Positions 11,861 through 32,914 of a stretch of DNA of 36,373 nt are shown here, in pieces (within the stretch, counting starts at the first letter, position 1; each line of letters begins with the position of its first letter). The stretch is from a virus. A program made the translations under genes and the position numbers. The DNA lies in the IMG/VR virus record IMGVR_UViG_3300035698_014057, positions 1 to 36,373 of that record. One strand, written 5' to 3'. The notes under the pieces are model-generated. The model saw only the letters and a program-made list of their open reading frames with translations, was not told where the DNA came from and ran no database searches.

Positions 11861-12879
11861 TAGATTTCCTCGCTATCATCATCCATACGCATACACGCCA
11901 TGTATTGATAGTCGTCTGTTTCAATTTTAACTGCCTTGTCACCAACAATTATGTCGGCTTCTATCTTTAAAGCGTCCAACACTATTTCACTTTCAATGTT
12001 GAATTTGAATGTCTCGGAACTTTTTACTTTGAATCGTTCTTTGTACCACCCTCCGTCGCCTTCTCCTATCAGCATCAGAGTTCCTTTACTCGCTTTGATT
12101 GTTATATACTCATCATTGCGGTTTTCCTTTGTGAAGATACGAGCGCCATCAATAGCATCTTTCATTTCCGGTGGTAGTTTAACAATGATTCCATCAAAAT
12201 CAAAATGCTCATCGGCTACATCAAGTTCTTCCCGTTCGTCAATAGTACGAATTGCCATTATGACATCTTTCTTATTCTTAAAGAAAATCCAACCTTTGTC
12301 AATGTGAAGATGGGTTGGGTCCATTTCAGCTAAGATAGGAATATATCTTCCACAGATAAAGAAGCGAGGCATTCCTTCTTCTTTCAAGAAGTACCGCATT
12401 CCTTTAGTTTCGTCTCTCGCCATCACTACATCATTATCAACCAAGATATATTGGAACAGCTCGTTGGACAACGACTTGCCACAGCAGAAAGAAACAAAGC
12501 TCAAAATGGAAACAAAGTCCTCTTGCAGTTCTGCCCAATCTTCTGGAATGTCTAAGCTGTCAAAAGGTAAACGAATATCAGAAGTCAGAGGAACACCAGC
12601 TCTTGATTTGTCATTAGAAATAACAATCTCACCTTCTTCAACATTGACATTAACCATCTTAGTTCTGAATTGCTTTAGTACAGCAAAGAACTCTTCCGCT
12701 TTAACTGCCCCATCAAGTCCAGGAGCTATAGGATGAAAGACGGCTACCTCATCGTTGTAGGTGATGACCTTATCATCCTTGAACACAAAGCAGTTTGCTT
12801 GGTCCGTTACTTCACGTTTGGACAATCCTGGAAGAACTCCCTCCAATGTGTCTCTAAATTCTTTTTTGTTTACTTGCAT
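11860..12879 (-). CDS. Sliding clamp (DnaN-like)
   Basis: The 339-residue protein is close to the length of bacterial beta clamps and lies directly upstream of the polymerase and near the clamp loader. It opens MQVNKKEFRDTLEGVLPGLS and is made of repeated helix-strand units, with an acidic surface-type composition and DNaN-like segments such as EEFFAVLKQF, SDIRLPFDSLD and FKFNIESEIVLDAL. Family assignment rests on pattern and context rather than a single motif. Role: a ring on DNA that tethers polymerase. The ribosome binding site is AAAGGAG, and the gene overlaps the upstream gene by 10 bases and polymerase by one. Confidence 0.8.
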   Translation of the reverse strand: MQVNKKEFRDTLEGVLPGLSKREVTDQANCFVFKDDKVITYNDEVAVFHPIAPGLDGAVKAEEFFAVLKQFRTKMVNVNVEEGEIVISNDKSRAGVPLTSDIRLPFDSLDIPEDWAELQEDFVSILSFVSFCCGKSLSNELFQYILVDNDVVMARDETKGMRYFLKEEGMPRFFICGRYIPILAEMDPTHLHIDKGWIFFKNKKDVIMAIRTIDEREELDVADEHFDFDGIIVKLPPEMKDAIDGARIFTKENRNDEYITIKASKGTLMLIGEGDGGWYKERFKVKSSETFKFNIESEIVLDALKIEADIIVGDKAVKIETDDYQYMACMRMDDDSEEI

Positions 12880-13203: not shown

Positions 13204-14265
13204 CTAAAATCTACAAGCTTTGATATATGATAGTGAGGACTCTGACAAATCAACGGCATTTCCTACTTTGTCCTTTGCATCTGCTAAATCCACTTTCTCA
13301 CTCCCAGCTTTTAGAGCTATGCAACGAGCAGAACGTTTCCCATTCTCACTTCCTTTTAAGCAGTCTCCTGCCGAAATAAGAACTCCTTTATACTTACTTT
13401 CATAATCTCGAAAATGGCTTGATAGTTCAATCTGTCTCCCTGCTCCTGCTAAGTATATGTTTAATCCTATTTGTTCTGCAAATCTCATGTAATATTTTCC
13501 GTTAAAATCATATCGCTGGACATCATTATTGCACAGACCATTTTCAACTATAATTTCCTTGCCATCTTCAATGATACTTTTACCCATCTTAAAACCCTGT
13601 TCCTCAATAAAACTTAATATCATTTCCTTTTCAAGATGGGTGTATTTGTTAAAGTGGTCAGATTTGTTTCGAGCTTTGCCAGCCTCCGATACTGCAACAA
13701 TGGAGGCTGGTTTTAGCAAGTCCCACTTACCATCTGTTCTTTTCGGTATGAGTATCTTTCCATAAGCTCCCAGCTTTACATACGAGGAGCTATCAACACT
13801 ATACCAATTATATCTTTGCATCAATCTAAAACTTGTCATTGCAAATCCATGAGTTTTCCAAGGACCTTTGTCAATCTCTTTGAATACTTTGTCGCCAAAA
13901 GTAGTGTACTCATCTGCCGATATATGCTGACCCAATCCACCAATCCCAATATACTCATACTCGTCCATGTACTTGTGTAACCACTTTATATCTTCTCCAA
14001 AGTGATACACAGGAATAGGGTGTACTCCATATTCTTTTTCAATTCGCTTCTGGACATTCCAAGTTTCTTGAGGATTGAAGATAATATCAAGAGTAGCCAA
14101 CACATCATAGAACTTACCGTACTTCTGTAAATATGTACAGTAGTTATGAAAAAACGTTTTGAAGTCGTCCTCTTCCATCCATTCATAAGTTGGTCGAGCT
14201 TTGCCTCTAATGTACTTGTTAAAGAACATATGGGCTCCACTATCAAGAAAGAGATTAAACTTCAT
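13204..14265 (-). CDS. dpdA: DpdA-like DNA 7-deazaguanine transglycosylase (TGT superfamily)
   Basis: The 353-residue protein matches the tRNA-guanine transglycosylase superfamily in its DNA-acting DpdA form. FLDSGAHMFF at residues 6-15 corresponds to the DSGGFQ base-pocket motif with Asp8. IPVYHFGEDIKWLHKYMDEY followed by YIGIGGLG, and HGFAMTSFRLMQRYNWYSVD followed by SSSY, are barrel strands typical of DpdA. The Asp in YSVDSSSY is a candidate catalytic nucleophile. The C-terminus (IYLAGAGRQIELSS, LISAGDCLKGSENGKRSARC) has no clear TGT zinc cluster. Known DpdA proteins exchange guanine in DNA for a 7-deazaguanine base. FolE, QueD and QueE in the same window supply a precursor. It follows the glycosyltransferase gene with an 11-base overlap. 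Confidence 0.8.
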   Translation of the reverse strand: MKFNLFLDSGAHMFFNKYIRGKARPTYEWMEEDDFKTFFHNYCTYLQKYGKFYDVLATLDIIFNPQETWNVQKRIEKEYGVHPIPVYHFGEDIKWLHKYMDEYEYIGIGGLGQHISADEYTTFGDKVFKEIDKGPWKTHGFAMTSFRLMQRYNWYSVDSSSYVKLGAYGKILIPKRTDGKWDLLKPASIVAVSEAGKARNKSDHFNKYTHLEKEMILSFIEEQGFKMGKSIIEDGKEIIVENGLCNNDVQRYDFNGKYYMRFAEQIGLNIYLAGAGRQIELSSHFRDYESKYKGVLISAGDCLKGSENGKRSARCIALKAGSEKVDLADAKDKVGNAVDLSESSLSYIKACRF

Positions 14266-15301
14266 ATAGCTCTCCTAGCTTCGCTTCCATATTAGAAATG
14301 GCAATAGTACCATTGTACTCAAAAGCTTGTTGTTGTCCTTTTAAAGCATACTGGGCTCCTTCCCAAGTACCTCCATCATATATAAGCCCTTTGAGGGTCC
14401 TGTCAAGGTCTTTATAATCTGTGTATCTGAAAGTAGAGCTATACATTTCCTCATAGCTTAATTTGTCGGGGACTAGCGGAATACAACCTGCGAATACAGC
14501 TTCCTGCATTGCAATACCCCAAGTTTCCTGGTCTGCAAATGATAGAGCAATTTTACTTCTAGCCAAGAGATTGTAATACTCCTCTTTAGTCTTGCAAACA
14601 TCTTTTGATTTAATCCACTGCCACCCTTCTCTTATTTCTGTAGGCATACGTTCTTTTAGATTGTCGAACAGAGCAGGATTCTTTTCAGGAGCAAGTCGGT
14701 GAGGAAATACAATTATGTTCTCCTTTGTAGGAGCTTCCAGTGCATCAGTTTCTTGTGGGAAAATAGGAAAAGGATTGACTACTATCTTCCTTTCATAGCA
14801 ATCACCTAAATAGTTTGTTATTAGTTGTTTGTGAAAATTTGTGGCAACAAAAACTGTATCGTATATCTCAAACCAGCTTTTTTCTATATCCTTTGCCCAA
14901 AACCCACAACCACTCCTTGAGAGAAAATCATAAGTGTCCCATGTCCCAGCATGTAAGCAGCCTGCTATCTTGAAATTGATTTTGGCTGTATCTCTAATGT
15001 AAGCCAGCATTTCAATCCCAGGGAACCACAGGTCGTGAAAGAAGATAACATCACCATCTTTAATCAAACCACTATATAAAAAATTAACCAAAGATTGTAA
15101 TTGATTTGCTTTATAATAATTAGTTCCAAAAGCATCCAAGAACTCTCCAGTCTGAATAGTAGAGGTGAGAGGTTTACCATAAATGAAGCCCCAATTTCTG
15201 TTATGCTTGTTTGAGTATTCTTTCCACCAATTAGTCCATTGAGTAGAGTATCTTTCCTCTAGTGGCTCAATAGGAACCATAAACATTCTATTCTTTTGCA
15301 T
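14255..15301 (-). CDS. GT-B (GT4-like) glycosyltransferase
   Basis: The 348-residue protein has two Rossmann-like halves. The N-terminal half contains VIFFHDLWFPGIEML and AGCLHAGTWDTYDFLSRSG. The C-terminal half starts at IIVFPHRLAPEKNPALFDNL (the sugar-nucleotide-binding R-x4-K type region) and carries ETWGIAMQEAVFAGCIPLVP, an EX7E motif followed by the G-C/T-P turn, as in GT4 enzymes. Between DpdA and the radical SAM/FolE genes it is well placed to glycosylate the deazaguanine base in DNA, a known job of phage glucosyltransferases on other modified bases. Cell-surface sugar modification is the alternative. The ATG overlaps the upstream stop (TAATG). Confidence 0.82.
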   Translation of the reverse strand: MQKNRMFMVPIEPLEERYSTQWTNWWKEYSNKHNRNWGFIYGKPLTSTIQTGEFLDAFGTNYYKANQLQSLVNFLYSGLIKDGDVIFFHDLWFPGIEMLAYIRDTAKINFKIAGCLHAGTWDTYDFLSRSGCGFWAKDIEKSWFEIYDTVFVATNFHKQLITNYLGDCYERKIVVNPFPIFPQETDALEAPTKENIIVFPHRLAPEKNPALFDNLKERMPTEIREGWQWIKSKDVCKTKEEYYNLLARSKIALSFADQETWGIAMQEAVFAGCIPLVPDKLSYEEMYSSTFRYTDYKDLDRTLKGLIYDGGTWEGAQYALKGQQQAFEYNGTIAISNMEAKLGELYEV

Positions 15302-15504
15302 TACACCACCTTTACTGAAAAGTCAAATATACCACAATAATAAAGAGAAACCCACAAACATCCGACAATAGCAGTAAACAGGATTCCTGCCGCTATACAA
15401 TCCTGTTTGTGTTTCGATTCTTTTATTTGGTCTTGAAGTGCTTTTATCATAAAGGTGGAAGTCATCACAATATTAAGGATTAGAACTATTTTGAAAAAAA
15501 TCAT
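15301..15504 (-). CDS. Small two-helix membrane protein
   Basis: The 67-residue protein has an N-terminal hydrophobic helix (MIFFKIVLILNIVMTSTFMI), a charged linker (KALQDQIKESKHKQD), and a second hydrophobic helix (AAGILFTAIVGCLWVSLYYC). It is coupled at both ends: its start overlaps the upstream gene's TGA and its TAA overlaps the glycosyltransferase ATG. No family is recognised. It could anchor a complex, act as a spanin- or inhibitor-like small membrane protein, or be unrelated to the modification genes around it. Confidence 0.65.
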   Translation of the reverse strand: MIFFKIVLILNIVMTSTFMIKALQDQIKESKHKQDCIAAGILFTAIVGCLWVSLYYCGIFDFSVKVV

Positions 15505-15749
15505 TTCTTTACTCCTCCTTTTAACTGTTTATGCTTCTTCGGGCTGTTCATTTTTCGCACTTCACAATAAGGACAAGGTACTTTCCTATTAGGAGCTATT
15601 TGATTTTCCTTTCTGTTCTTATCTTTGTACGAAAGATACCCTACCTTGTGCGGAGTTACTATGAATCCAGAACTACAACATTTTTTACATTTTGCTCTGT
15701 CTTGTTTTTGTCCACTTTTTCTTCTAATTATTAGTTTTTTAAGTGCCAT
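15501..15749 (-). CDS. 82-aa basic zinc-finger protein
   Basis: The protein begins MALKKLIIRRKSGQKQDRAK and has CKKCCSSGF around residue 21-29 and CPYC around residue 59-62, giving two Cys pairs able to bind one zinc ion, in the style of phage DnaJ-like zinc fingers. The rest is rich in Lys and Arg, suggesting nucleic-acid contact. It has AAGGA at correct spacing and sits directly after the radical SAM gene. Function unknown; a substrate-DNA or tRNA adaptor is possible but untested. Confidence 0.65.
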   Translation of the reverse strand: MALKKLIIRRKSGQKQDRAKCKKCCSSGFIVTPHKVGYLSYKDKNRKENQIAPNRKVPCPYCEVRKMNSPKKHKQLKGGVKK

Positions 15750-15759
15750 TTTATTTTCC

Positions 15760-17112
15760 TTATTTTTCCATAATTAAATTTAATCTAGCCAACAAGGCTA
15801 AAAAGATATAAGTTTTTTCTTGAGGAATATTGTATCTATTCATTCTTAGCATAAAAGTAAGGACATTGGTGACACCCATATTCCTATCTATGCAGTCCGA
15901 GAACCTACCAAGCAATGAAGCAGGTAAATTATATACTCCCATCCAATAGACGATTGACCCACTCCCATGAGGCTCCGGAAAATCTTCTACTACAAATTTA
16001 CTGTCCTTAAAAGACTGAGGAATAAATGATGGATACAATCTAATTCCATTTGGTGTTAAAATCTCGCCTTTCTGTTCAATATTATCATAAGCTTTAGTCC
16101 CAGGATATGGCAAGAAGAATTGCCCTAAGCCCCCAACTGTTCCATTTGTAATTACTCTAGGAGACATTTTCTCAGGTTTTTGTCCATATTTATTTAAAAA
16201 TGTTCCCATTATATTTAAACTTTTAATTGTTTCGCCAGGAAAGAAAGTAATACAGAGGAACAGAATCTCAACACTTGAGTCCTTCATAATTTCTTTCAAC
16301 CGTATGTAATCTTCTTCACCTTTCTTGCCCATCATTTTGTTTAAACTGACACTTTCAAGTCCTATTTCGAGCAATCGTACTCCTGCATTTTCAAGAGCTT
16401 CTACTCCGTACTCATCTATGAATGAAAGCACACCCCTCACAGTCCCTTGAATTATACTGTTAAAGTCATAGTCATTAAAAAATTTAAGCACTTCTGAGGC
16501 CCTGTGAATGTCTAAAAACAAATCTTCATCTATAAAGTGAATATTCGTTAAATTATGTATAGCATAGTATTTCACCTGTTCGTGTACTTGCCATAGTTCT
16601 AACTTAGCCATACAGTTCCTGGACCAAACAGGCACAGGACAAAATGTACAAGCATTTTGACAACCAAATGAAGTATAGAAAGGATACAGTTCATCACCAC
16701 AATCCATATCTTTTATATGTCCGTCGCAATCACACATTGCTCTTAGATGGTGGGCTGTTTGTGCTTCATAGTTTACTTGGAAAAACTTCATTCCTTCTTC
16801 TATTTCTTTTGTACTAACATCATAAAAATCATAACCAGCTTCATCAATGATTGGTTTGTAGCCAAAGACATAAATTGGTTTTTTCTTTTCAGGAAGAACT
16901 ACATTTACAAGAAAGCTTACTTGTCCCTCTTGTATTCTGCTTCCGAGAAAGACAAAGTATTCTTCCGCTTCGGGGAGTTCATTTGCTTTTGTAATTGCTT
17001 GATTCTCCACAAGATAATTATTATCATCAGCTCCTAAAAGTAGATAAGGCATATAAGATATACCTGCTCCGACGTAGTTTGCATTAGAAGTTATTATACA
17101 CCGTTTGTACAT
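15760..17112 (-). CDS. Radical SAM enzyme (Elp3/MiaB-type barrel, unassigned reaction)
   Basis: The 450-residue protein has the radical SAM cluster motif at Cys151, Cys155 and Cys158 (FGCQNACTFCPVP). Later barrel motifs are IHFIDEDLFLD, VRLLEIGLESVS, FFPGET (after an ILFLCITF strand) and LPYPGTKAY. The first 140 residues form an N-terminal domain of Rossmann-like strands (YEAQTA, VFLGSRIQEG) in the position of a cobalamin-binding domain, but the D-x-H-x2-G motif for B12 is not evident. Such enzymes install methyl groups or do other radical chemistry. In this cluster it could act on the deazaguanine base or its sugar. Its ATG overlaps the upstream TAA (TAATG) with AAAGGAG before it. Confidence 0.85.
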   Translation of the reverse strand: MYKRCIITSNANYVGAGISYMPYLLLGADDNNYLVENQAITKANELPEAEEYFVFLGSRIQEGQVSFLVNVVLPEKKKPIYVFGYKPIIDEAGYDFYDVSTKEIEEGMKFFQVNYEAQTAHHLRAMCDCDGHIKDMDCGDELYPFYTSFGCQNACTFCPVPVWSRNCMAKLELWQVHEQVKYYAIHNLTNIHFIDEDLFLDIHRASEVLKFFNDYDFNSIIQGTVRGVLSFIDEYGVEALENAGVRLLEIGLESVSLNKMMGKKGEEDYIRLKEIMKDSSVEILFLCITFFPGETIKSLNIMGTFLNKYGQKPEKMSPRVITNGTVGGLGQFFLPYPGTKAYDNIEQKGEILTPNGIRLYPSFIPQSFKDSKFVVEDFPEPHGSGSIVYWMGVYNLPASLLGRFSDCIDRNMGVTNVLTFMLRMNRYNIPQEKTYIFLALLARLNLIMEK

Positions 17113-17471
17113 TATTCAATCTCCTTTAATCCAAATTCATCTGTATTAATTAATTCAGCTTCATTTTCACCATCTTCGGAAACAATCACCCTACAAGCTT
17201 TCATTTGTCTCATTAGAATATCAGCTATTTCCTCACAACTCGTTTCATCTTCACCACGCATATAATTTTTCATTTTATCAAGAGCTTCTTGGAGTTTTCG
17301 CTTCTGCTGAAAAAACTCCAAATCTCTATTATTGTGAGACACCAACCAAGATACCTTTACTTTAAATAAATGTCTATGTCTGTTCCGCAGAAAAGCAACA
17401 TCATTAGGAGCATCCGCCCATTTGTGAAAGCCAACAAACTCGCCACTTATTGTAATGAATCGCTTAATCAT
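17112..17471 (-). CDS. T-fold protein, QueD/6-PTPS-like without catalytic Cys
   Basis: The 119-residue protein resembles QueD in layout: an N-terminal strand ITISGEFVGFHKW with the first His, RNRHRHLFKVKVSWLV with the H-x-H pair, then SCEEIADILMRQMK and VIVSEDGENEAEL near the end, matching the helix and last strands of the family. The zinc ligands are retained, but the Cys a few residues before H-x-H in QueD is missing, and the D-H and H-E catalytic pairs are not seen. It probably binds a pterin or deazaguanine-like compound without the QueD reaction. A real QueD lies at 21073-21477. Its start overlaps the upstream stop (ATGA). Confidence 0.6.
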   Translation of the reverse strand: MIKRFITISGEFVGFHKWADAPNDVAFLRNRHRHLFKVKVSWLVSHNNRDLEFFQQKRKLQEALDKMKNYMRGEDETSCEEIADILMRQMKACRVIVSEDGENEAELINTDEFGLKEIE

Positions 17472-17731
17472 TTCTTTTCCTCTAGAGGCTCAAACATTGC
17501 AGAAGAAAAACTCCATGGCTTACTCGTACCTTCTAGTTTGAAAAATTCAATTACTTTGTTTCTATGAATACCACTTCCTGTATGTTCAGTAACAAAACAA
17601 TTAGTAAGGTTTTTTAAATCCAGTTTCATTCCCTTATTTAAAGTAACCCCGCCATACTCTCTTCCACCTCTCAGATGTTTACGAGGAATTAGTTTTGTTC
17701 CAACAGGGTATTTTTGGTCTTTCTCTTCCAC
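17468..17731 (-). CDS. 87-aa hypothetical protein after FolE
   Basis: The start is a GTG at 17731 preceded by TAGGAGG at seven bases; the TAG of that site is also the FolE stop. The frame is the same as FolE's, so reading through one TAG would fuse the two proteins. The protein begins MEEKDQKYPVGTKLIPRKHL and looks like a small beta-barrel (VGTKLIPR, GGVTLNKGMKLDL), then SKPWSFSSAMFEPLEEKK. I do not recognise it. A base- or nucleotide-binding accessory protein is possible from context only. Confidence 0.65.
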   Translation of the reverse strand: MEEKDQKYPVGTKLIPRKHLRGGREYGGVTLNKGMKLDLKNLTNCFVTEHTGSGIHRNKVIEFFKLEGTSKPWSFSSAMFEPLEEKK

Positions 17732-17740
17732 AACAACCTC

Positions 17741-18289
17741 CTATTTGATTAAACTTAAAAATTCTTGCCGTGCTGTAGCATCCTCTTTAAACACACCCCT
17801 TAAAGAAGAAGTTACCATAATGGAGTTTTGTTTTTTCACTCCTCTTGAGGTCATGCAAAAATGCTGTGCTTGAATTATACAAGCCGCTCCTTTAGCATCA
17901 AGGTATCTCATTATTGCATCTGTTACTTGGATACCTATCCTTTCTTGTATTTGTGCCCGACGTGAGTAAGCTTCCAGTACTCTTGCCAGTTTGCTTATTC
18001 CTACTACTTGTTTATTTGGGATATAGGCAATATGTGCTTTTCCAAAAAAGGGTAACAGATGATGTTCACACGTGGAAAACATTTCAATATCTTTTAGGAC
18101 TACAATTTCATCACAAGCACCATCACTAAAAGTTTTAAAAAGCTTAAATACATCAATTTTGTATCCAGCATAAAGTTCATTCCAAGATTTAACAACTCTT
18201 GCAGGAGTTTCGAGTAATCCTTCTCTTTCTGTATTCTCTCCAATGTATTTGAGTTGCTTTTTTACTGTATCAAGTATTTCCTGATTCAT
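17741..18289 (-). CDS. folE: GTP cyclohydrolase I
   Basis: The 182-residue protein is full-length for FolE. It contains ENTEREGLLETPARVVKSW, MFSTCEHHLLPFFGKAHIAY with zinc ligands near Cys74 and His77, the long helix EAYSRRAQIQERIGIQVTDA, and AQHFCMTSRGVKKQNS with the third zinc Cys at about 145. It converts GTP to dihydroneopterin triphosphate, the first step of both folate and 7-deazaguanine synthesis. With QueD and QueE in this window it points to the latter. The start has AAGGAAG at good spacing. A 14-bp inverted repeat stands just upstream. Confidence 0.95.
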   Translation of the reverse strand: MNQEILDTVKKQLKYIGENTEREGLLETPARVVKSWNELYAGYKIDVFKLFKTFSDGACDEIVVLKDIEMFSTCEHHLLPFFGKAHIAYIPNKQVVGISKLARVLEAYSRRAQIQERIGIQVTDAIMRYLDAKGAACIIQAQHFCMTSRGVKKQNSIMVTSSLRGVFKEDATARQEFLSLIK

Positions 18290-18316
18290 TGTTCTGCTTC
18301 CTTATAAAGTGAGAAA

Positions 18317-18379
18317 GCTCTCCCACTGGCCTTTTAATTGCAAATTGGGGGAGAGTATAGAAGAAGCCAGTGGGAGAGC
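18317..18379 (-). terminator. 14-bp inverted repeat upstream of folE (terminator or attenuator)
   Basis: Perfect arms GCTCTCCCACTGGC and GCCAGTGGGAGAGC (18317-18330 and 18366-18379) flank a 35-base loop. In the minus-strand transcript the stem follows the SAP gene stop and precedes folE, with a weak U-rich run after it. The loop contains a second CTCTCCC that could pair with the same GGGAGAG arm, giving two exclusive structures, as in attenuators. It is reported as a terminator because of position; regulation is inferred. Confidence 0.5.
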
Positions 18380-18389
18380 AAGGTATTAT

Positions 18390-19082
18390 TTAGTTGCTTT
18401 TCTTGGCCCAACATTTGTAGGCTTTGGCACGTTTCTTGCACCATTTCTTGAAAGCTTCGTCCGTATCTTCAATTTTACTTGCAGACACCAAAGCTTCACG
18501 TTCGCCAGCGTAAATTTCAATATACGCTTTGTCCCATTCTTCCGCTGAGGCTTCTTTTGCAAAAAGCTCTTTCGCCACAGAATGTTTGTTAGGACCAGTT
18601 GATTTTGGTGAAGCAGTCTTTTTGACTTTCTTCACTTTGTCAGGAAGAGGAATTTCCAGAGCATTGAATATGGCAATGTCCTTTTTGTCAAAACAAGTAA
18701 GCTCTTTCAAGTCCGCTTCTGAAAGACCAATTCCGAAATGCTCAGGGTCAGTTCCCCCGCCGTTGTTTGCAGGGTCAAGTTCCAATTTCATGTCGGCAAT
18801 CAGTACAGAATCTTCGACCGTGGTGTCAAATTCAGCACTTAATCCGAGTACATCAAAAACTTTCTTTGCAAAAACTTTCAGGGTTTTGGAATCAACTGCA
18901 GGACTTGCAGGAGCTTTTTCTGCTTTTGGTTCAGCAGTCGCTTCTTCCTTTGGAGCTTTAGCTTTCGCTTTAGTTCCACCACTTTTTTCAGCAATCAGCT
19001 TTTCCAAAACTTCGGCTTTCTTCCCAACGGGGTTGATTCCAAGTTCTTTTGCTTCTGCTCTTAATTCTTTGTACGAGGCCAT
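18390..19082 (-). CDS. SAP-domain DNA-binding protein
   Basis: The 230-residue protein begins with a SAP-like helix-turn-helix, MASYKELRAEAKELGINPVG followed by KKAEVLEKLIAEK (residues 1-33). An Ala/Lys/Glu-rich linker follows. A middle part contains LKELTCFDKKDIAIFNALEI, and a basic linker KVKKVKKTASPKS and a C-terminal helical part with KKWCKKRAKAYKCWAKKSN complete it. SAP domains bind DNA, so a DNA-associated role in replication or modification is likely. It is the first gene after the promoter at 19143 and has AAGGAG at good spacing. The rest of the protein is not assigned. Confidence 0.7.
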   Translation of the reverse strand: MASYKELRAEAKELGINPVGKKAEVLEKLIAEKSGGTKAKAKAPKEEATAEPKAEKAPASPAVDSKTLKVFAKKVFDVLGLSAEFDTTVEDSVLIADMKLELDPANNGGGTDPEHFGIGLSEADLKELTCFDKKDIAIFNALEIPLPDKVKKVKKTASPKSTGPNKHSVAKELFAKEASAEEWDKAYIEIYAGEREALVSASKIEDTDEAFKKWCKKRAKAYKCWAKKSN

Positions 19083-19142
19083 TTGTCTGTCTCCTTGTTT
19101 GGGGTTTTTACATTTTTCTTGTTCTCGTAACTTCTATACTGT

Positions 19143-19171
19143 ATCATAGAGACGGAGTAAGCTAATTCCCG
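19143..19171 (-). promoter_or_regulatory. Promoter for the SAP-folE-dpdA-replisome operon
   Basis: On the minus strand TATGAT (19143-19148) follows a 17-bp spacer TTAGCTTACTCCGTCTC that closely matches the spacers of the promoters at 22987 and 31833. The -35 (19166-19171) is poor. The spacer match, not the -35, is the main support. Start of transcription would be near 19136, about 55 bases before the SAP start codon. The rest of the 118-base gap shows nothing else. Confidence 0.5.
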
Positions 19172-19200
19172 TCATTTCTGAAAACTATTTAATATTATAT

Positions 19201-20502
19201 TTATTTAGCTCTTTCATTTCCCCATAACATAACATGCAATCTTGGAAGTATTCTTACTCCATTTAAAGGGAATGTGTGGTCCTTCGATATTTTGTCTACT
19301 AATTCTTTGTAGTTGCTTTTATGACTAGTACTGTCTGGTTCGTTATCATCCATAGGAGTAACGATAAAGGAACAATGAACACCTTTGCTCTGAAAGAATT
19401 GTATTTGGTTTTTAGCTACATTATAACTAAAATCATCTTTCACAAGGAACTTTATTTCATCTTGTGGTCGAATTAAATCTAATGGAATAATGAACGGTAT
19501 CTTTTCTCTTGGGTCTTTAAAGTCTAAAGAATTTATAGAGGAGTTGGTTAATATGTGTTTTGTTTTTTCAGAATATATACCACCACTCAACTGTATGGTT
19601 ATGTTTGAATCATATCTGCTTTTAAGATAAGCCATAAGATATTTTATTCTTGATGGGTACCAATCTGGCGACCCTCCAGTTATTTCTATATGTTTTGTGT
19701 ATTTGATTTCCTCTATAACATTAGGGAAAGAAACGGCTGATTTGCTGGTTTTCTCTTGTTTGCATCCTTGGCTGTAAGAACTATCACAATAAGAACAATG
19801 AAATGGGCACCCTTTTATACGGACAAATGTTTTCCATTGTCCAGAGCTTATTCCCTCTCCTTCAATACTTTCAAAAATATCACTTATAGGTAAAGTCTTT
19901 GAACCATAAAGTTTATCCGTTTTAGTGTATTGGTCAGTAGCTCTTTGTTTCTTAAAGTGGTGTAGGCTATATAAACTCATCTTGTAACAGCAGATGTAAA
20001 TAGAATTTGCTGTGCATGTATGGCTCTTGTACGTTCTATCTATCCCAACATTTGTGAATTTATATTTTGGTTCTTCTGTAACCCACCCACCTATATTCAT
20101 TTTATCTAAATACTTCTTAATAAAAAGATGGAATGTTATATCATTATTTACAAAGAATATTGTGGCGTTTCCAGTAGCTTTTTCTATATCAATATTGCCA
20201 TCGCTGTCAATAAGACCAGCAAATACATTCCAAAATTCTGTATCTGTTAAATTCAATTCTAATACCTTCTTTTTCCATTTGTGAAATAAAGTAACAATCT
20301 CCATGCCTTCGTAAAAAAGAGTAGTGTGGGAGCTATCGGTGTGGTTGTATCTCAATTCCAGTCTTGTCGCTATTTCCTCTATCTCCTCTTTTTCCGTAGT
20401 GTTCCTGCTTATCTGTAAGCTGTTCCCTGTCTTAGCCCCGTCTCCTAGCCAACGACCAAACACATAATAAAGAAAAGGATTTATATTTTTTTCATCTATC
20501 AT
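19201..20502 (-). CDS. queE: LAGLIDADG homing-endonuclease domain fused to QueE radical SAM enzyme
   Basis: One open frame of 433 residues. Residues 1-200 look like a LAGLIDADG endonuclease with the two motif helices YYVFGRWLGDGA (13-23) and WNVFAGLIDSDGNIDI (91-106). From about 203 a complete QueE follows: LPISDIFESIEGEGISSGQW, the radical SAM cluster GCPFHCSYCD (Cys232, 236, 239), EITGGSPDW, and the family-type end LPRLHVMLWGNERAK. QueE makes 7-carboxy-7-deazaguanine from the QueD product. No internal start with a ribosome site precedes the QueE part. It might be a fused or intein-derived homing domain. The start has AAGGAGG and overlaps the upstream TGA (ATGA). Confidence 0.85.
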   Translation of the reverse strand: MIDEKNINPFLYYVFGRWLGDGAKTGNSLQISRNTTEKEEIEEIATRLELRYNHTDSSHTTLFYEGMEIVTLFHKWKKKVLELNLTDTEFWNVFAGLIDSDGNIDIEKATGNATIFFVNNDITFHLFIKKYLDKMNIGGWVTEEPKYKFTNVGIDRTYKSHTCTANSIYICCYKMSLYSLHHFKKQRATDQYTKTDKLYGSKTLPISDIFESIEGEGISSGQWKTFVRIKGCPFHCSYCDSSYSQGCKQEKTSKSAVSFPNVIEEIKYTKHIEITGGSPDWYPSRIKYLMAYLKSRYDSNITIQLSGGIYSEKTKHILTNSSINSLDFKDPREKIPFIIPLDLIRPQDEIKFLVKDDFSYNVAKNQIQFFQSKGVHCSFIVTPMDDNEPDSTSHKSNYKELVDKISKDHTFPLNGVRILPRLHVMLWGNERAK

Positions 20503-20636
20503 AGTTCCTCCTTAAACATTCTATCCTGGCATTTTTGGCACATACCAGATATTTCAAATTCTCTTTTATTTAGCTCATCTTTAAACTTGATAGCTTTTCC
20601 ATTACATACAGAACAAACCTTCTTTTTCTTTGACAT
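20499..20636 (-). CDS. 45-aa zinc-binding small protein
   Basis: The frame starts at an ATG with AAGGAAGGAAG just upstream and ends TGA overlapping the QueE-fusion ATG. It encodes MSKKKKVCSVCNGKAIKFKD followed by a short stretch and CQKC near the C-terminus, so two Cys pairs can bind one zinc. Its size and layout are typical of small phage zinc ribbons. Its start overlaps the end of the 78-aa gene by 35 bases. Function unknown. Confidence 0.65.
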   Translation of the reverse strand: MSKKKKVCSVCNGKAIKFKDELNKREFEISGMCQKCQDRMFKEEL

Positions 20637-20838
20637 TCTTCCTTCCTTTTTTACGAAGGCATCCACAACTTTTAGTATGCCCTCTGGTTAAATTATCACG
20701 GGCAACTTGAACTATTTTGCCACATTCACATTCACACGTCCAATGAGAAGTACGCCTAGTATCTACCCAACATCTCTCAATGACCAGTAACCTACCAAAC
20801 TTCTCTTTTGCTAGATTCCATTTGTGTTCTCTTTTCAT
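20602..20838 (-). CDS. AP2/HNH-associated zinc-finger-like phage protein
   Basis: The 78-residue protein carries FGRLLVIERCWVDTRRTSHW, CECECGKIVQVARDNLTRGH and TKSCGCLRKKGRK. This FGRLxV...W.C.C.CG...V....L..G.TKSCGC pattern is common in phage proteins, often next to an HNH or AP2 domain; only the zinc part is present here. Such proteins are associated with homing-type elements but are also found alone. It lies just after tRNA-Ala and before the LAGLIDADG-QueE fusion, so two mobile-element-like parts are near each other. Confidence 0.7.
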   Translation of the reverse strand: MKREHKWNLAKEKFGRLLVIERCWVDTRRTSHWTCECECGKIVQVARDNLTRGHTKSCGCLRKKGRKNVKEKEGLFCM

Positions 20839-20872
20839 TTGACAAGACCTTGGTTTTCCTTTATTTTAAAAA

Positions 20873-20949
20873 TGGTGGAGCCACTGAGATTCGAACCCAG
20901 GACATCCTGCTTGCAGGGCAGGTGCTCTATCCAACTGAGCTATGACCCC
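20873..20949 (-). tRNA. tRNA-Ala (anticodon UGC)
   Basis: The minus strand folds as a full cloverleaf of 77 nt. Acceptor arm GGGGTCA/TGGCTCC has the G3-U70 pair that marks alanine tRNAs. The D-arm is AGCTCAGTTGGATAGAGC. The anticodon stem CCTGC/GCAGG has loop CCTGCAA giving TGC. The T-arm carries GGTTCGAATCC. The CCA end is encoded. It is located between QueD and the zinc-finger genes in the same direction. It is the only tRNA I find in the window. Confidence 0.96.
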
Positions 20950-20963
20950 ATTTAAAATTAAAA

Positions 20964-21061
20964 TAGTTTGGTTGCCAGCATTTAGGAGTTTGCATGGTGT
21001 CCCTGTCGCAGATGCCGAATACCTATCCCATGATTATTATTGCGACATCACAACCAAACTA
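20964..21061 (-). ncRNA. Compact structured RNA between QueD and tRNA-Ala
   Basis: An 11-bp perfect outer stem (20964-20974 with 21051-21061) encloses a 7-bp hairpin TGTCGCA/TGCGACA (21004-21010 with 21041-21047) with a 30-nt loop. A second hairpin CCA(T)GCA...TGCTGG lies between that and the outer stem, giving a three-way junction. A CATGG in the first loop can instead pair with CCATG beyond the stem as a pseudoknot. On the minus strand it follows the QueD stop by about 11 nt and is followed by TTTTAATTTT. I do not recognise a known class; it may also act as a terminator or processing signal. Confidence 0.55.
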
Positions 21062-21072
21062 AAATTTATTTA

Positions 21073-21477
21073 TTATTCTGAATACTCCGCCCATCCTGTC
21101 GCTGTTTCATGTATGCGAATGATAAGCTTTTGCATTGATGGAACTAAGTTTATCCGTTCTATCGTTTTCTTTATTTCTTGATACAAATCCTTTGCCATAT
21201 TTTCTGCGGTAGGATTATAATCCACCCTGATACAAGTAAGCTTTATTTTATCCTCTGCGTGTAAAACTGTTTCGTGGTCAAATACTCCTATATGATATCC
21301 TATTTTCTCTTTTAGCAATTTAAAATCAACTACCATACCATCAGCATTAAGCTCTGTAGCAGAAATAAAAACCTCAACCAAGTACCGATGCCCATGTAAA
21401 TTCTGACAGGGCTTTGTATAACTGCTCATCAATCTGTGAGCTCCTTCAAATTTAAAAGTTTTCCGTATGGTATACAT
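21073..21477 (-). CDS. queD: 6-carboxy-5,6,7,8-tetrahydropterin synthase QueD
   Basis: The start is ATG at 21477, overlapping the upstream TAA (TAATG) with GGAG eight bases before, giving 134 residues. It shows the full QueD site: FEGAHRLM (first zinc His), TKPCQNLHGHRYLVEV (catalytic Cys and H-x-H), GMVVDFKLLK, GVFDHETVLH (D-H pair), NPTAENMAKDLY and RIHETATGWAEY (Glu near the end). The substrate is dihydroneopterin triphosphate from FolE; the product goes to QueE. It belongs to the 7-deazaguanine pathway although it is about 3.6 kb from folE. Confidence 0.93.
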   Translation of the reverse strand: MYTIRKTFKFEGAHRLMSSYTKPCQNLHGHRYLVEVFISATELNADGMVVDFKLLKEKIGYHIGVFDHETVLHAEDKIKLTCIRVDYNPTAENMAKDLYQEIKKTIERINLVPSMQKLIIRIHETATGWAEYSE

Positions 21478-21827
21478 TATTTTATCTCCGTTATTGTTAC
21501 GCTGTTTACTAAAGAACAAATACGAACTCCTGTTCCTTTCTTCTTTCTTTTGTATAATAGAACAGGCTCAAGTTTAAATTCATGGACTTCCTTTATTCTC
21601 TCGGGCAGTTCTGCAAAGCTGATGTATACTTCTTGCAATCCAGGAACAGCAAAACCTATTATCTTATCTGGAAAGTCTTTTTGTAGAGGCTTCTCTTTGC
21701 TTACATGTCCTTCTGCATCACAATAGTAAGGATAAGGCAAAGCCCCAGGAACAGATATAAGACCTTTAGAGGTTTTTACAATCCTGTTTTTTTGTTCTGC
21801 TGGTTGAATTTTGTATTTAATCTCCAT
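21477..21827 (-). CDS. 116-aa hypothetical protein upstream of QueD
   Basis: The ATG at 21827 has GGAG at seven bases and is chosen over the longer frame. The protein begins MEIKYKIQPAEQKNRIVKTS and contains KGLISVPGALPYPYYCDAEG and LEPVLLYKRKKKGTGVRICS. It looks like a small beta-rich domain with basic loops. I do not recognise it. It is coupled to QueD by TAATG and to the gene above by an 11-base overlap. Confidence 0.65.
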   Translation of the reverse strand: MEIKYKIQPAEQKNRIVKTSKGLISVPGALPYPYYCDAEGHVSKEKPLQKDFPDKIIGFAVPGLQEVYISFAELPERIKEVHEFKLEPVLLYKRKKKGTGVRICSLVNSVTITEIK

Positions 21828-22026
21828 CTTCTTTCTCCGTATGTCTTTCGCTAAATGAATCCATCCAATAGCCAACTACTGCTGAAACTTCCTTTTTGTC
21901 TAGTTCTGGAAATTCCTTCCGCACATAACTACCTGCACCAAACATATTACATAGTCCTGATTCTCGAAGTTCATCTAAAAACTCTAAATGCTCTTCCGTT
22001 ACAACTGTTGGTCTTTCAATAGCCAT
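21817..22026 (-). CDS. 69-aa conserved-type phage hypothetical protein
   Basis: The sequence begins MAIERPTVVTEEHLEFLDEL and continues RESGLCNMFGAGSYVRKEFP, then ELDKKEVSAVVGYWMDSFSE. This HLEFLDELRESG...NMFGA pattern is one I recall from many phage genomes, without known function. It is all-helical and acidic, perhaps a small regulator. The ATG overlaps the DUF932 stop (TAATG). Confidence 0.7.
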   Translation of the reverse strand: MAIERPTVVTEEHLEFLDELRESGLCNMFGAGSYVRKEFPELDKKEVSAVVGYWMDSFSERHTEKEDGD

Positions 22027-22931
22027 TATGCCACCTTCTCCAACGCTTTGTCGATGTTAACCAAAGACTTCTTCAAATCATTGTTGCCTTTACCAAACAG
22101 AATATTGAAACCTCTGTCTTTTATTCTGTTGCCACCTTGTACATGTTCAATGTATTCTGATGTAGCATGAAACGCACCATAAGCAGTATTCTTGATACCA
22201 AGCTCTTTATGCCCACTTGCTCCATCAAATAACATCTTACTTAAATCTTCCCGGTTGTTTTCTGCAATCGTCTTAGCCTTCCCTTCATCAACAACAACAG
22301 GGAAACAGATTTTAGCATAGAGTTCCAATTGATTGTCAGTCATTTTCACGTCCAACATCTTTTTGAGGTTCTCTTTCATTGTCAAGAAATTGTCCACCGA
22401 TTCTTGGTAGATACCTTGTATGGCTTCATACGTTGGAAGCATATTGATATTGTGCAGGATTCGTGAGGAGATTCCTTCTTTCTTTCCTTCAAGCAAAGCA
22501 GACTTTAAAGTATTAGTACACCACACCCGAATAGATGTAGGAGTAATGATGTTAGCTGTTTTTCCATTGTGCGACCAGCTGAACAATAAGAACTGTTTGT
22601 AAATGTCGCCAGGGATTACTTCCATTTCTTCTTGCTTTAATAAGCTGTAGCAGATTTCACCACCTTTAAAGCAGCCTTCTGTTTCTTTGCTCCAAAATCC
22701 TGTATCAGTTAGTTCGTTGACCCACTCCTTTGCCTTTTCATTTGGAAAGACTTGGTAGCGGTCTTTTACATCTCCGAGAAATGCTCCAGTATCTGTTCTG
22801 ACAATAGCAGACTTAGGAGCAAAGCGCGGACGATTCTCTCCGGGGATTCGATAAGACATTCTTACTTTTTCCACATCCCAATCAAGATTGCTGTCAGGCA
22901 TGATTGACCAACTTCTTCTTTCGATTGTCAT
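22026..22931 (-). CDS. DUF932 phage/plasmid-like protein
   Basis: I place the start at ATG 22931 with AGGG at eight bases; the upstream GTG at 22946 is part of this site. The 301-residue protein shows DUF932 features: VRTDTGAFLGDVKDRYQVFP near residue 45, GGEICYSLLK, FLLFSWSHNGKTANIITPTS followed by IRVWCTNTL, and NTAYGAFHATSEYIEHVQGG near the C-terminus. Members are found in phages and plasmids with unknown function. It is the first gene after the promoter at 22987. Confidence 0.82.
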   Translation of the reverse strand: MTIERRSWSIMPDSNLDWDVEKVRMSYRIPGENRPRFAPKSAIVRTDTGAFLGDVKDRYQVFPNEKAKEWVNELTDTGFWSKETEGCFKGGEICYSLLKQEEMEVIPGDIYKQFLLFSWSHNGKTANIITPTSIRVWCTNTLKSALLEGKKEGISSRILHNINMLPTYEAIQGIYQESVDNFLTMKENLKKMLDVKMTDNQLELYAKICFPVVVDEGKAKTIAENNREDLSKMLFDGASGHKELGIKNTAYGAFHATSEYIEHVQGGNRIKDRGFNILFGKGNNDLKKSLVNIDKALEKVA

Positions 22932-22986
22932 TTTAGATTCCCTCACTTTAAAACATTAAATTCTTTTTCTTTATTGCTTATACTCT

Positions 22987-23015
22987 ATTATAGAAAAGGA
23001 GAGTTCTAATATCAG
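22987..23015 (-). promoter_or_regulatory. Promoter for the DUF932-QueD-QueE operon
   Basis: Minus strand: -10 TATAAT (22987-22992), spacer of 17 bp TTAGAACTCTCCTTTTC, -35 CTGATA (23010-23015). About 64 bp (22986-23049) match 31832-31895 without gaps at most positions, including the A/T-rich upstream part CTTTTAATTATTTT. This indicates a duplicated promoter with a conserved spacer and possible UP element. Confidence 0.75.
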
Positions 23016-23167
23016 AGCTTTTGTAAAAATAATTAAAAGAAAGTTGTGGACCAAAAAAAGACCCTTCCCGACAGCCAGTACAAGAAGAGCCAAACCTTTT
23101 AAGGTTGTAGTTTGCATTATTAGTATAATACATTAAACTAGAAAAGTCAACCTTCCACAAAAGAAAT

Positions 23168-23196
23168 TTGACATTTTCTTAGGAATGAACTATAAT
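23168..23196 (+). promoter_or_regulatory. Perfect consensus promoter for the large RNA
   Basis: Plus strand TTGACA (23168-23173), a 17-bp spacer and TATAAT (23191-23196): every base fits the sigma70/sigmaA consensus. Nothing coding follows for 550 bases on this strand, and the nearest gene (helicase end) runs the opposite way. The 23050-23167 stretch before it holds a small dyad AACCTTTTAAGGTT and no gene. Confidence 0.85.
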
Positions 23197-23453
23197 AGAA
23201 AGATACAGCTAGAAAGACATCACAAATTTTCTAGTTCTTGGGCGGTAATTCAATCAGGTTACTTCGGTAAGTTATTTTGCTAGTAAATTGTTTGCACTTG
23301 AAGAACTCTCCGTTTCAGCAAAAGACAGGAGGCAAACAGCCAGGCTGACGAGTTGACAATACGAGTCCTTAATACAGCCCAACGGGACATTTTGATTATT
23401 CAAAAAAGTGTTGGTAAAGGTGAAAGTCCTTTAAGTTTTGAATCCTGAGGTCA

Positions 23454-23469
23454 AGGAAATAAAACAAAT
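23454..23469 (+). repeat. 16-base direct repeat, copy 1
   Basis: AGGAAATAAAACAAAT is identical at 23454-23469 and 23701-23716, once in the middle and once at the 3' side of the large RNA. Both copies follow a hairpin and look like single-stranded A-rich linkers, or loop-closing segments of a repeated module. Confidence 0.8.
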
Positions 23470-23700
23470 CAATGGTGATTGCTTCACCAAATTGTCGCAG
23501 GGACAAACACAACCATATGGCGGAACGCTCTCTTTAGCGGTAAAGAGAAAAACAACTAATGACAGATAGTTGGCGAGCTTAAACAAAGTAAGTGAGAAAG
23601 GCCCGACTTAGTACCACTGTTTAAGACTATATGGCGCAGATTTTAACTGAAAAACTTAGATGGTATAAGTTTGATAGGTTAGAGTTTCGTTCCTTCAGTT

Positions 23701-23716
23701 AGGAAATAAAACAAAT
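23701..23716 (+). repeat. 16-base direct repeat, copy 2
   Basis: Second copy of AGGAAATAAAACAAAT, directly after the TTCC...GGAA hairpin near the 3' end of the large RNA; it may mark the end of the folded region. Confidence 0.8.
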
Positions 23717-23752
23717 AAATAGATATACTATAGTAATGTAGTGTATTAGGAA

Positions 23753-24145
23753 TTACTCATCATTAGTAGGTGCTACAAATTCTTTTCTCCAATAACTATC
23801 AACATGAAAGTTACCAACATTCAGATTTTGTAAACAAACCGCTTGCCTATAAGGGTCATAACTGCCGTCCCTGTCGAGAAAGACATTTACCCGAATCAAC
23901 TTCTTCCTTTTTTCCTCATTACTTTGCATGATGCCAATAGCCGAAGTAACATGGTCCCACTTCATTCGTGTCTCCGAGAAATTTTCTGTTGTAATTGTTT
24001 CGTCTTTCATTGCTTTTGAATCGCCCTGTGTCCCTGCACAGAAGCACAAATCGAACTCTAAAGAGATAGAACGAGCTACAGCCCACTTCTCTGCTTCCGC
24101 TTCTCTAATCGCTTTATTTTCACTACAAGCCTTTGCTATATCTAA
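23753..24145 (-). pseudogene. C-terminal part of DnaB-like helicase, separated by an amber codon
   Basis: This stretch continues the helicase frame directly after the TAG at 24146-24148 for 130 codons without another stop. It holds normal C-terminal motifs: KWAVARSISLEFDLCFCAGT followed by Q (the strand ending in the sensing Gln), FSETRMKWDHVTSAIGIMQS and RVNVFLDRDGSYDPY (the RxxxFxRDG region). No internal start with a ribosome binding site was seen. It is either the second half of a recently broken gene, or part of a protein made by reading through or recoding TAG. Confidence 0.7.
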
Positions 24146-25330
24146 CTAGTCAAATACAATTAAGTCAGGAATCCAGCCTTCTTCCCTCCACATTAACAAG
24201 ATACTAAACAAATCCCCCATAGTGAAAGACTTAGTAGGATAAGATAATTGGCGAAACTCTCTGCCTTTAGTACGGAATTTGAAAATCTTTTGAGAGAGTA
24301 AAATGTCGTCTGTGGTGAGGGGTTCGTTGTAGCTCTCTTTTATATAGAATGGAGCACCTGTGAAGTCGCTATGAAGTTTAGCACAACGGGTACATGGTTC
24401 ATAGTCTGTTGTATCAATATCATCAAGAAGCTCATTGCTAGATAAATTTACAATAGGAAAGCCAATGGATTTTCGTTTACTTCTCATACATTCGTTCCGC
24501 TGATTGTTTAAGCAATCCATAATTGGAACAGTAAACTCACCACATTGAAAAGACTTAGAGGGTTTTCTCGCCATCCAAGTAAACAATCTTTCAAGCTGTT
24601 GAGCTTCGCTCAAGTCTCCTCCTTGTACAAGCAATACATTTTTTCTTGCCATTGTCCCCCTCATGTTTACTTCATCAAGAAGAAAAGTTTTACCAATCTT
24701 AGCTTTTCCCATGATTGCCACAAATGTCGATGGGCGAAACAAAGGACTAATCAGTTCACCCAAAGCCCCTTTCATGTGTATAAAACCTGGTTGGTTTGCC
24801 TTCATTATCTTACTTGCAATATCAGTATCCTCAAAAGGACGAATAAGAGGCAAATCTTTTACCGACTTTGTGGCTTCTTTTTGCTTTTGGATTAGCTCGT
24901 TGGCATATTCTACATCTTCTTGCTCAAGAGCCTCTGCCAATTCAGTTTTAAACTTCTGCAAATCTTTAATGGAGCCAACTTGAATTGCTCTATCCACAAG
25001 ATAGTCAACATTCAGCTCCTCACTTCTTTCAATGTCCTCTTTGTTTAAGCAACCAAGAATATCCTCAATCAATTCCAAGTAATCTTCGTGTATTTCCTTT
25101 GACCTTAGGGCTTCATTGTATATGTCCTCAATGTGAATACCAGGAGCTTCTGAATATTCATCGTAAAAATCAAAACACCAATTAGCAATGACAGAAGCAA
25201 ATCCCTCACGGAACAAACCAAACGTTGCCTCTTTCTCATATACTTTCTTGAGGAACTCTGTATTGGTTATAAGAGCCGTCAATATCTGTTTGATTTCGCC
25301 AGCATCTTTTGTAGTTCTAGTTATTTTCAT
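24146..25330 (-). CDS. Replicative DNA helicase, DnaB-like, ending at an in-frame TAG in Walker B
   Basis: The 394-residue product has a helical N-terminal domain (to about 165), then MKGALGELISPLFRPSTFVA followed by IMGKAKIGKTF with Walker A near residue 205, VLLVQGGDLSEAQQLERLFT, a Cys-rich insertion (CTRC plus CGEF, CLNN, perhaps zinc-binding), and PDLIVFD at the very end. Related helicases continue D-Y-x-D from here; in this sequence the Tyr position is TAG and the frame goes on for 130 sensible codons (23753-24145). The ATG overlaps the loader gene's TGA (ATGA). Loader, primase and helicase are adjacent, so the gene was clearly functional in descent. Without the C-terminal part the ATPase would be dead. 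Confidence 0.85.
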   Translation of the reverse strand: MKITRTTKDAGEIKQILTALITNTEFLKKVYEKEATFGLFREGFASVIANWCFDFYDEYSEAPGIHIEDIYNEALRSKEIHEDYLELIEDILGCLNKEDIERSEELNVDYLVDRAIQVGSIKDLQKFKTELAEALEQEDVEYANELIQKQKEATKSVKDLPLIRPFEDTDIASKIMKANQPGFIHMKGALGELISPLFRPSTFVAIMGKAKIGKTFLLDEVNMRGTMARKNVLLVQGGDLSEAQQLERLFTWMARKPSKSFQCGEFTVPIMDCLNNQRNECMRSKRKSIGFPIVNLSSNELLDDIDTTDYEPCTRCAKLHSDFTGAPFYIKESYNEPLTTDDILLSQKIFKFRTKGREFRQLSYPTKSFTMGDLFSILLMWREEGWIPDLIVFD

Positions 25331-31772: not shown

Positions 31773-31832
31773 TTTAACTCCCTCATGATTAAAAATTTAC
31801 TATCTATAAGATACAATATGTTTCTTTATTAT

Positions 31833-31861
31833 ATTATAGAAAAGGAGAGTGCTAAAATCAG
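31833..31861 (-). promoter_or_regulatory. Promoter for the DUF2786-SNF2 operon
   Basis: Minus strand: -10 TATAAT (31833-31838), a 17-bp spacer TTAGCACTCTCCTTTTC and -35 CTGATT (31856-31861). The 31832-31895 stretch is the near-copy of the promoter at 22986-23049. The rest of the gap to 31976 holds AAGGGAA and TTCCTTTTT arms that could form a weak terminator for the gene at 31977. Confidence 0.75.
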
Positions 31862-31976
31862 AACAAATTAGAAAATAATCAAAAGAAATTTGTAGGTTGT
31901 ATTCTTTGAGAATTGAGTTGAGTTGGATTCATATTGAAAAAGGAAGCCCCGTAGCCCCACAAAGATTTCCCTTTAG

Positions 31977-32581: not shown

Positions 32582-32804
32582 ATTTAAGGAATCCTTTGTA
32601 TTCAAATTGATACCCCTTTTGAGTATAAGCTAAAAACGATTTTAAGCAACTTTAAGAGCTATTTGAGCAGTTCTTTACTATTATAGCACTATTGAATCCG
32701 CTCTACTCACAAGTGCTTTGAATTGCTTTATTTGCTGTATTCAACTATAGAAAACATGATGCAAGAGCTTGAAAAACTTTATTTAAGTTTTTTTGCTTTA
32801 ACGC

Positions 32805-32833
32805 TTGTTTTTATCGCTTTTAAGCTGTATAAT
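32805..32833 (+). promoter_or_regulatory. Plus-strand promoter of the accessory operon
   Basis: -35 TTGTTT (32805-32810), 17-bp spacer, -10 TATAAT (32828-32833). The 32582-32804 stretch between the divergent promoters has no gene. It is A/T-rich with repeated words such as GCAAGAGCwTGAAAAA (twice), TTGAAT and ATTCAA, which may be binding sites for a regulator. Confidence 0.6.
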
Positions 32834-32855
32834 ATATATATAGTTTAATACTCTA

Positions 32856-32881
32856 CTGTACAGTATATAAAAATTGTACAG
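32856..32881 (+). promoter_or_regulatory. Two TGTACA operator-like sites
   Basis: CTGTACAG (32856-32863, perfect palindrome) and TTGTACAG (32874-32881) stand 18 bases apart in the leader just after the predicted start of transcription. Spacing of nearly two helix turns suits a dimeric repressor. No matching regulator is identified in this window. Confidence 0.4.
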
Positions 32882-32914
32882 TTCTTAAAAATCTGTTTCA
32901 TAAGGAGACAAAAA

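Follow-up and report, generated by a model that had tools for sequence, protein, structure and literature searches.

To our knowledge, only a few large RNAs encoded by phages have been described, and for none of them is there an agreed function. ROOL RNAs contain pseudoknots, are often located near tRNA islands in phage genomes and form an octameric nanocage with a conserved kissing loop; GOLLD RNAs comprise a conserved 3′-region and have either tRNA neighbours or a tRNA within a linker. Both build cages that consist of RNA only (PMC12286853). In addition, RNA sequencing of phage K (Kayvirus) revealed the large non-coding RNAs lnc001 and lnc002, one of which is transcribed from its own early promoter (PMC9241854; text and table of this paper disagree on which lnc number belongs to which place). 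The literature likens the phage K RNAs to ROOL and GOLLD on the grounds of their position and their abundance and, in one instance, of their sequence. As the ROOL model yielded no match to the phage K RNAs, large phage RNAs exist outside the named ROOL family.

Here, we analyzed a DNA of 36,373 bases, an IMG/VR record of an uncultured bacterial virus (phage), hereafter referred to as the window. On balance, we consider it probable that the stretch from position 23203 to 23757 on the + strand represents an independent, free-standing gene for a large (~555 nucleotides) structured non-coding phage RNA, the 5′-end of which we infer from a promoter and the 3′-end from a closing helix.

Results

Comparison with known large RNAs

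Like ROOL (RF03087), the proposed RNA is phage-encoded, several hundred nucleotides in length (the ROOL model comprises 574 positions), rich in stems and non-coding, and with GOLLD (RF02032) it shares the character of a large, ornate RNA encoded by a phage. The first-pass annotation had suggested a ROOL- or GOLLD-type RNA or else a new class. The assignment to ROOL or GOLLD was not borne out. No Rfam family, including group I and group II introns and riboswitches, matched at the gathering threshold, which is 99.1 bits for ROOL and 150 bits for GOLLD. When a stretch of 1 kb was scanned by cmscan with lax filters, neither ROOL nor GOLLD was listed at E ≤ 5, and a match to sR19 (21.9 bits as compared to a cut-off of 45) was taken as chance. 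With the ROOL model, a direct search of the record was negative at E ≤ 10. Since no match was obtained in the control genomes either, very divergent ROOL RNAs could escape this search. The GOLLD model produced a single chance match of 4 bits at another place and on the other strand. Moreover, no tRNA island adjoins the stretch, the single tRNA-Ala being 2.2 kb away, and the RNA differs from GOLLD in that it is shorter and has no tRNA inside or next to it.

The phage K RNAs lnc001 and lnc002 are likewise large orphan non-coding RNAs with an own promoter or an abundant transcript, and their fold z-scores (−1.7 and −2.9) compare with −2.7 for the RNA described here. However, they adjoin tRNA genes and are known from RNA sequencing, whereas the present RNA is predicted from the sequence; lnc001 has an annotated terminator, whereas no intrinsic terminator is found on the + strand between 22500 and 25000 here; and the hairpin excess of the present RNA is not seen in lnc001. 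Sequence similarity to the phage K RNAs does not go beyond short AT-rich words. A comparable size of about 600 nucleotides and a high degree of structure have also been described for OLE RNA (PMC12286853, PMC12054373), which, however, is found mainly in extremophilic bacteria rather than in phages, and the present RNA lacks any Rfam match. Two features looked for in a large phage non-coding RNA, the absence of coding capacity over several hundred nucleotides and an own promoter, the latter as judged by its sequence, were found at this locus.

Promoter and genomic context

All genes between positions 83 and 32561 of the window are located on the − strand. They include genes for an SbcC-like protein, UvsX/RecA, 5′-3′ exonuclease, DNA polymerase A, sliding clamp and clamp loader, genes for a DUF932 protein, a DnaB-like helicase, a DnaC-like loader, a primase, an SNF2 helicase and a sigma factor, and, on the deazaguanine side, genes for tRNA-guanine transglycosylase, GTP cyclohydrolase I, QueE and QueD. 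The 7-deazaguanine gene set (TGT-like, GTP cyclohydrolase I, QueE and QueD, with an extra radical SAM and a glycosyltransferase gene) spans positions 13204–21519 and suggests that the phage DNA is modified; several of these genes are present in related phages too. At the flip in gene direction, the divergent intergenic stretch 32611–32914 shows a strong fold for either strand, with z-scores of −4.4 and −3.2.

A gene-free interval of 800 bases separates the DUF932 gene (22026–22946, −) from the helicase gene (23753–25330, −). Within this interval, and opposite to all of these genes, a perfect sigma-70 promoter is located on the + strand (23168–23196), comprising TTGACA at 23168–23173, a spacer of 17 nucleotides and TATAAT at 23191–23196. 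The promoter had been described as flawless, and it does match at 12 of 12 positions. It is the only such site with 17-nucleotide spacing in the window, in which 0.055 perfect promoters are expected (dinucleotide shuffles, spacers of 16 to 18). A chance occurrence becomes even less likely because the site heads a gene-free stretch and points into it. The leftward promoters elsewhere in the phage look different: before the DUF932 gene (22960–23045) and at 31800–31895, the −35 region is poor and TATAAT forms the end of a longer conserved element. These two long promoter-like elements on the − strand are similar to each other (TTTCTTTTNATTATTTT ... CTGATNTTAGNACTCTCCTTTTCTATAATA) and are perhaps read by the phage's own sigma factor. 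Since the leftward promoters look different, the promoter of the RNA looks like one that is used by the main sigma factor of the host.

Between positions 22500 and 25000, no intrinsic terminator was found on the + strand, with loops of up to 20 nucleotides allowed. The 3′-end given for the RNA is thus conjectural, and transcription may extend into the helicase gene in antisense orientation. On the − strand, a strong leftward intrinsic terminator is located at 23091–23060 (11 bp followed by seven T), which may end either the helicase operon or a divergent small RNA of ~60 nucleotides with a promoter at 23150–23122. This candidate small RNA (23150–23053, −) combines TTGACT-17-TATACT, the hairpin AACCTTAAAAGGTT and the terminator, and its complementarity to the large RNA was no better than that of shuffled RNA (24 of 100).

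In line with the first-pass annotation, the RNA converges on the 3′-end of the helicase operon: the helicase frame stops at TAA 23753–23755, provided that an in-frame TAG (24146–24148, −) is passed over. This TAG falls exactly on the tyrosine of the DYAD motif, a position occupied by Y in 17 of 17 aligned relatives, and beyond it the frame is open for 131 codons with homology. Because nine ORFs of more than 120 amino acids terminate in TAG, recoding of this codon is unlikely; the candidate explanations are an error in sequencing, suppression and a genuine nonsense change.

Coding capacity and folding

The longest stop-to-stop frame within 23203–23757 comprises 58 codons, and no start codon in this stretch was found to be preceded by a suitably spaced ribosome-binding site. 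Six-frame translation of positions 22947–23757 revealed no convincing protein relative among related phages. The claim that the promoter is followed by roughly 550 nucleotides without a gene thus holds for the ~555 nucleotides considered here. The G+C content is similar to that of the rest of the genome. The purine content of the + strand reaches 0.566 and ranks second among 640 sub-windows left of 32 kb, where the + strand averages 0.43; this bias is opposite to that of the flanking genes. Since a high purine content is expected for the product strand, the + strand appears to be the product here.

The + strand folds with −140.5 kcal/mol, which corresponds to a z-score of −2.7 (−2.71; 120 shuffles), or of −3.25 when 561 nucleotides were compared with 100 shuffles. 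For the − strand z is about −1.1, and the fold excess is thus strand-specific. When 66 sub-windows and strands were scanned coarsely, the + strand of this stretch gave the best value (z −5.3), which is noisy with only 20 shuffles. As segments of 150 nucleotides within the stretch fold in an ordinary manner, the signal resides in the whole molecule. The stretch contains eight perfect Watson-Crick hairpins of at least 5 bp as compared to 3.2 in shuffled sequences (2 of 300 shuffles reach eight), and, counted without overlap, six perfect hairpins of 6 bp or more as compared to 0.95, a number reached by none of the 300 shuffles. The count of perfect hairpins is the highest in the window, attained by one of 130 sub-windows, and bears out the abundance of local hairpins reported previously. 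It should be noted that a thermodynamic folding excess is weak evidence for an RNA, and that folding energy alone is no proof.

Predicted architecture of the RNA

In the predicted fold, in which all elements are given for the + strand, many helices reach a probability of ~0.85 or higher; these are located in the 3′ two thirds and further include the closing helix. In the 5′ third (23256–23369), pairing is ill-defined, the outer helices showing probabilities of 0.2–0.3. The first-pass annotation had listed a UUCG tetraloop stem; the sequence UUAC-UUCG-GUAA is indeed present at 23259–23270, but the hairpin is absent from the minimum-energy fold. The 5′ hairpin (23207–23236) comprises 10 bp (AGCTAGAAAG / TTTTCTAGTT) and a loop of 10 nucleotides, with a mean pair probability of 0.88. 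The terminal closing helix of 8 bp (GGTAATTC / GAATTACT; 23244–23251 with 23750–23757; probability 0.85) overlaps with its 3′-side (23750–23757) the helicase stop codon TAA 23753–23755, read on the − strand.

Perfect hairpins are predicted at 23415–23433 (6 bp, TAAAGG-TGAAAGT-CCTTTA; 0.94), 23473–23489 (6 bp, TGGTGA-TTGCT-TCACCA; 0.96) and 23492–23506 (5 bp, TTGTC-GCAGG-GACAA; 0.86). They are followed by a four-way-junction domain (23513–23634), closed by CCATATGG / CTATATGG (23513–23520 with 23627–23634; 0.87), which served as the basis of the covariance model R1. The 8-bp GCGG stem noticed on first inspection was recovered in this domain as the hairpin TCTCTTTA-GCGG-TAAAGAGA (23529–23548; 0.97), next to a 6-bp hairpin CAACTA-ATGACAGA-TAGTTG (23553–23572; 0.98) and an 8-bp stem CTTAAACA / TGTTTAAG (23578–23625; 0.93), the apical loop of which contains the palindrome GGCC at 23600–23603. 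The long arm (23638–23687) consists of an 11-bp helix (23638–23648 with 23677–23687; 0.99) and encloses a 7-bp hairpin AAACTTA-GATGGTA-TAAGTTT (23652–23672; 0.99), whose loop sequence TGGTA (23661–23665) could pair with TACCA at 23612–23616. The 3′ hairpin (23722–23747; 0.98) comprises 11 bp including G-U pairs.

In addition, the RNA contains a direct repeat of 20 nucleotides, present as AGGAAATAAAACAAATCAAT at 23454–23473 and, with 19 of 20 positions identical, as AGGAAATAAAACAAATAAAT at 23701–23720. Each copy is preceded by TCCT, which is able to pair with the AGGA of the copy (TCCT/AGGA, 0.6 in copy 1; TTCCT/AGGAA, 0.55 in copy 2). No occurrence of the repeat sequence AGGAAATAAAACAAATNAAT other than those at 23454 and 23701 was found, the expectation for the whole window being 0.08 matches. 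Beyond this repeat, a duplication between the two halves of the RNA was no better than in shuffles.

Search for relatives

BLAST searches of the RNA against phages and plasmids gave no match at 1e-2, and at E ≤ 10 only short chance matches. The exact 16-mer of the repeat was present in at least 119 stretches of viral contigs, and among those listed neither the TCCT arm nor a homologous flank was present; its occurrences in other phages, mostly inside apparently coding sequence, were attributed to chance. Likewise, two exact 16-mers of the junction domain yielded 6 and 13 matches in viral contigs, mostly in open frames and none of them homologous. Across 84,980 genomes of bacteria and archaea, the hairpin pattern TCCT-N4-9-AGGAAATAAAACAAA was matched 75 times; no match had a homologous flank, and by our estimate these matches look like chance.

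When the helicase, primase and DUF932 proteins were used as baits on viral contigs, one distant phage was returned (29% in the helicase), and the phage appears to be without a close relative in the viral collection. A DNA polymerase profile retrieved 44 distant relatives (about 32–39%). Model R1 together with BLAST revealed nothing convincing, neither in 18–20 whole related records nor in 0.7 Mb of related loci. Perfect promoters in two distant relatives were dismissed, as they are located inside genes or have no RNA-like stretch downstream. One relative (L132, IMGVR_UViG_3300031227_000047) shares the gene order DnaC-DnaB-interval-DUF932. In its DnaB-DUF932 interval no counterpart of the RNA was found; it contains promoter-like and terminator-like sites and, by reading, a small ORF. 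Because the same gene order occurs there without the RNA, the RNA would be accessory, gained in the lineage of the window or lost in the other.

Two observations in related phages concern other candidate RNAs. A gene-free interval at positions 12835–13275 of L134, also found in L135 and L136, folds very strongly (z −6.4) and comprises a T-arm and 3′ acceptor half (GGGTTCGAATCCCGTACGATGG) ahead of a 5′ half (CTATCGTTAGCTCAGTTGGTAGAGC), with a 7-bp acceptor stem possible by eye. It seems to hold a permuted tRNA, although neither ARAGORN nor Rfam reported a tRNA in this interval. At positions 1536–1880 of L159, bordering a QueD match, ARAGORN indicates a permuted tmRNA, which may be a false positive.

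Discussion

The locus is best read as encoding a lineage-specific, independently transcribed large structured RNA that is comparable in kind to lnc001 and lnc002 of phage K. Transcription by the host RNA polymerase and its main sigma factor would start at ~23202–23204 and proceed rightwards early in infection. The product would fold compactly into the 5′ hairpin and a body shut by the 8-bp terminal helix, within which a chain of short hairpins, the four-way-junction domain and the long 3′ arm would be arranged. As has been proposed for the large phage RNAs ROOL, GOLLD and lnc001/lnc002, it would most likely act as a stable RNA, either by itself or together with proteins, serving as a scaffold or decoy, so that its shape would do the work and not a base-paired target or a peptide. 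Any particular mode of action is, however, far less certain than the RNA gene itself.

Alternatively, an antisense or convergent transcript could restrain the helicase operon by reaching into the 3′-end of DnaB, acting through collision or through pairing with the helicase mRNA. The convergent orientation would suit such a role, and with no + strand terminator ahead of the helicase gene the transcript would probably enter it. Yet, a regulator of this kind has no need for a structured leader of 550 nucleotides, and the hairpin excess as well as the closing helix stop right at the helicase stop codon; we therefore regard this explanation as unlikely, albeit the strongest of the rivals. Next in plausibility, and quite unlikely as well, is a DNA element, namely a replication origin or initiation region beside the helicase, primase and loader genes, in which the inverted repeats act as DNA. 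The location, with the helicase operon on one side and a divergent promoter region on the other, the many inverted repeats and the direct repeat would be in keeping with an origin; the strand-specific fold excess, the presence of the direct repeat in two copies only and a G+C content like that of the remaining genome argue against it.

A further reading takes the stretch as a decayed gene or as the 3′-UTR of the leftward helicase operon, in which case the promoter on the + strand would have arisen by chance. The strong terminator at 23091–23060 could end this operon, and an RNA gene is without supporting homologues. Given how rarely a perfect promoter is expected in the window, the absence of protein similarity in all frames and a purine bias against the operon strand, we deem this improbable, more so than a DNA element. 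Least credible by far is an mRNA for a small peptide, such as the 21-codon ORF at ATG 23472 after AAGGA: the AGGA does lie upstream of this ATG, but the spacing of 14 nucleotides is too long, the second repeat copy has no start codon and every ORF is short.

Beyond an independent gene for a structured RNA, the locus might be the first representative of a new class of large ornate RNAs of phages, expressed early from a host-type promoter, forming a homo-oligomer or an RNP via apical loops (e.g., GGCC at 23600–23603), and gained and lost within one lineage. We consider this extended proposal doubtful. The RNA is short enough for synthesis in vitro, followed by probing or imaging. If the proposed RNA gene is real, an unrelated large RNA in a phage lineage with 7-deazaguanine-type genes would suggest that the curated families understate both the number of such RNAs and the ease with which they are gained.
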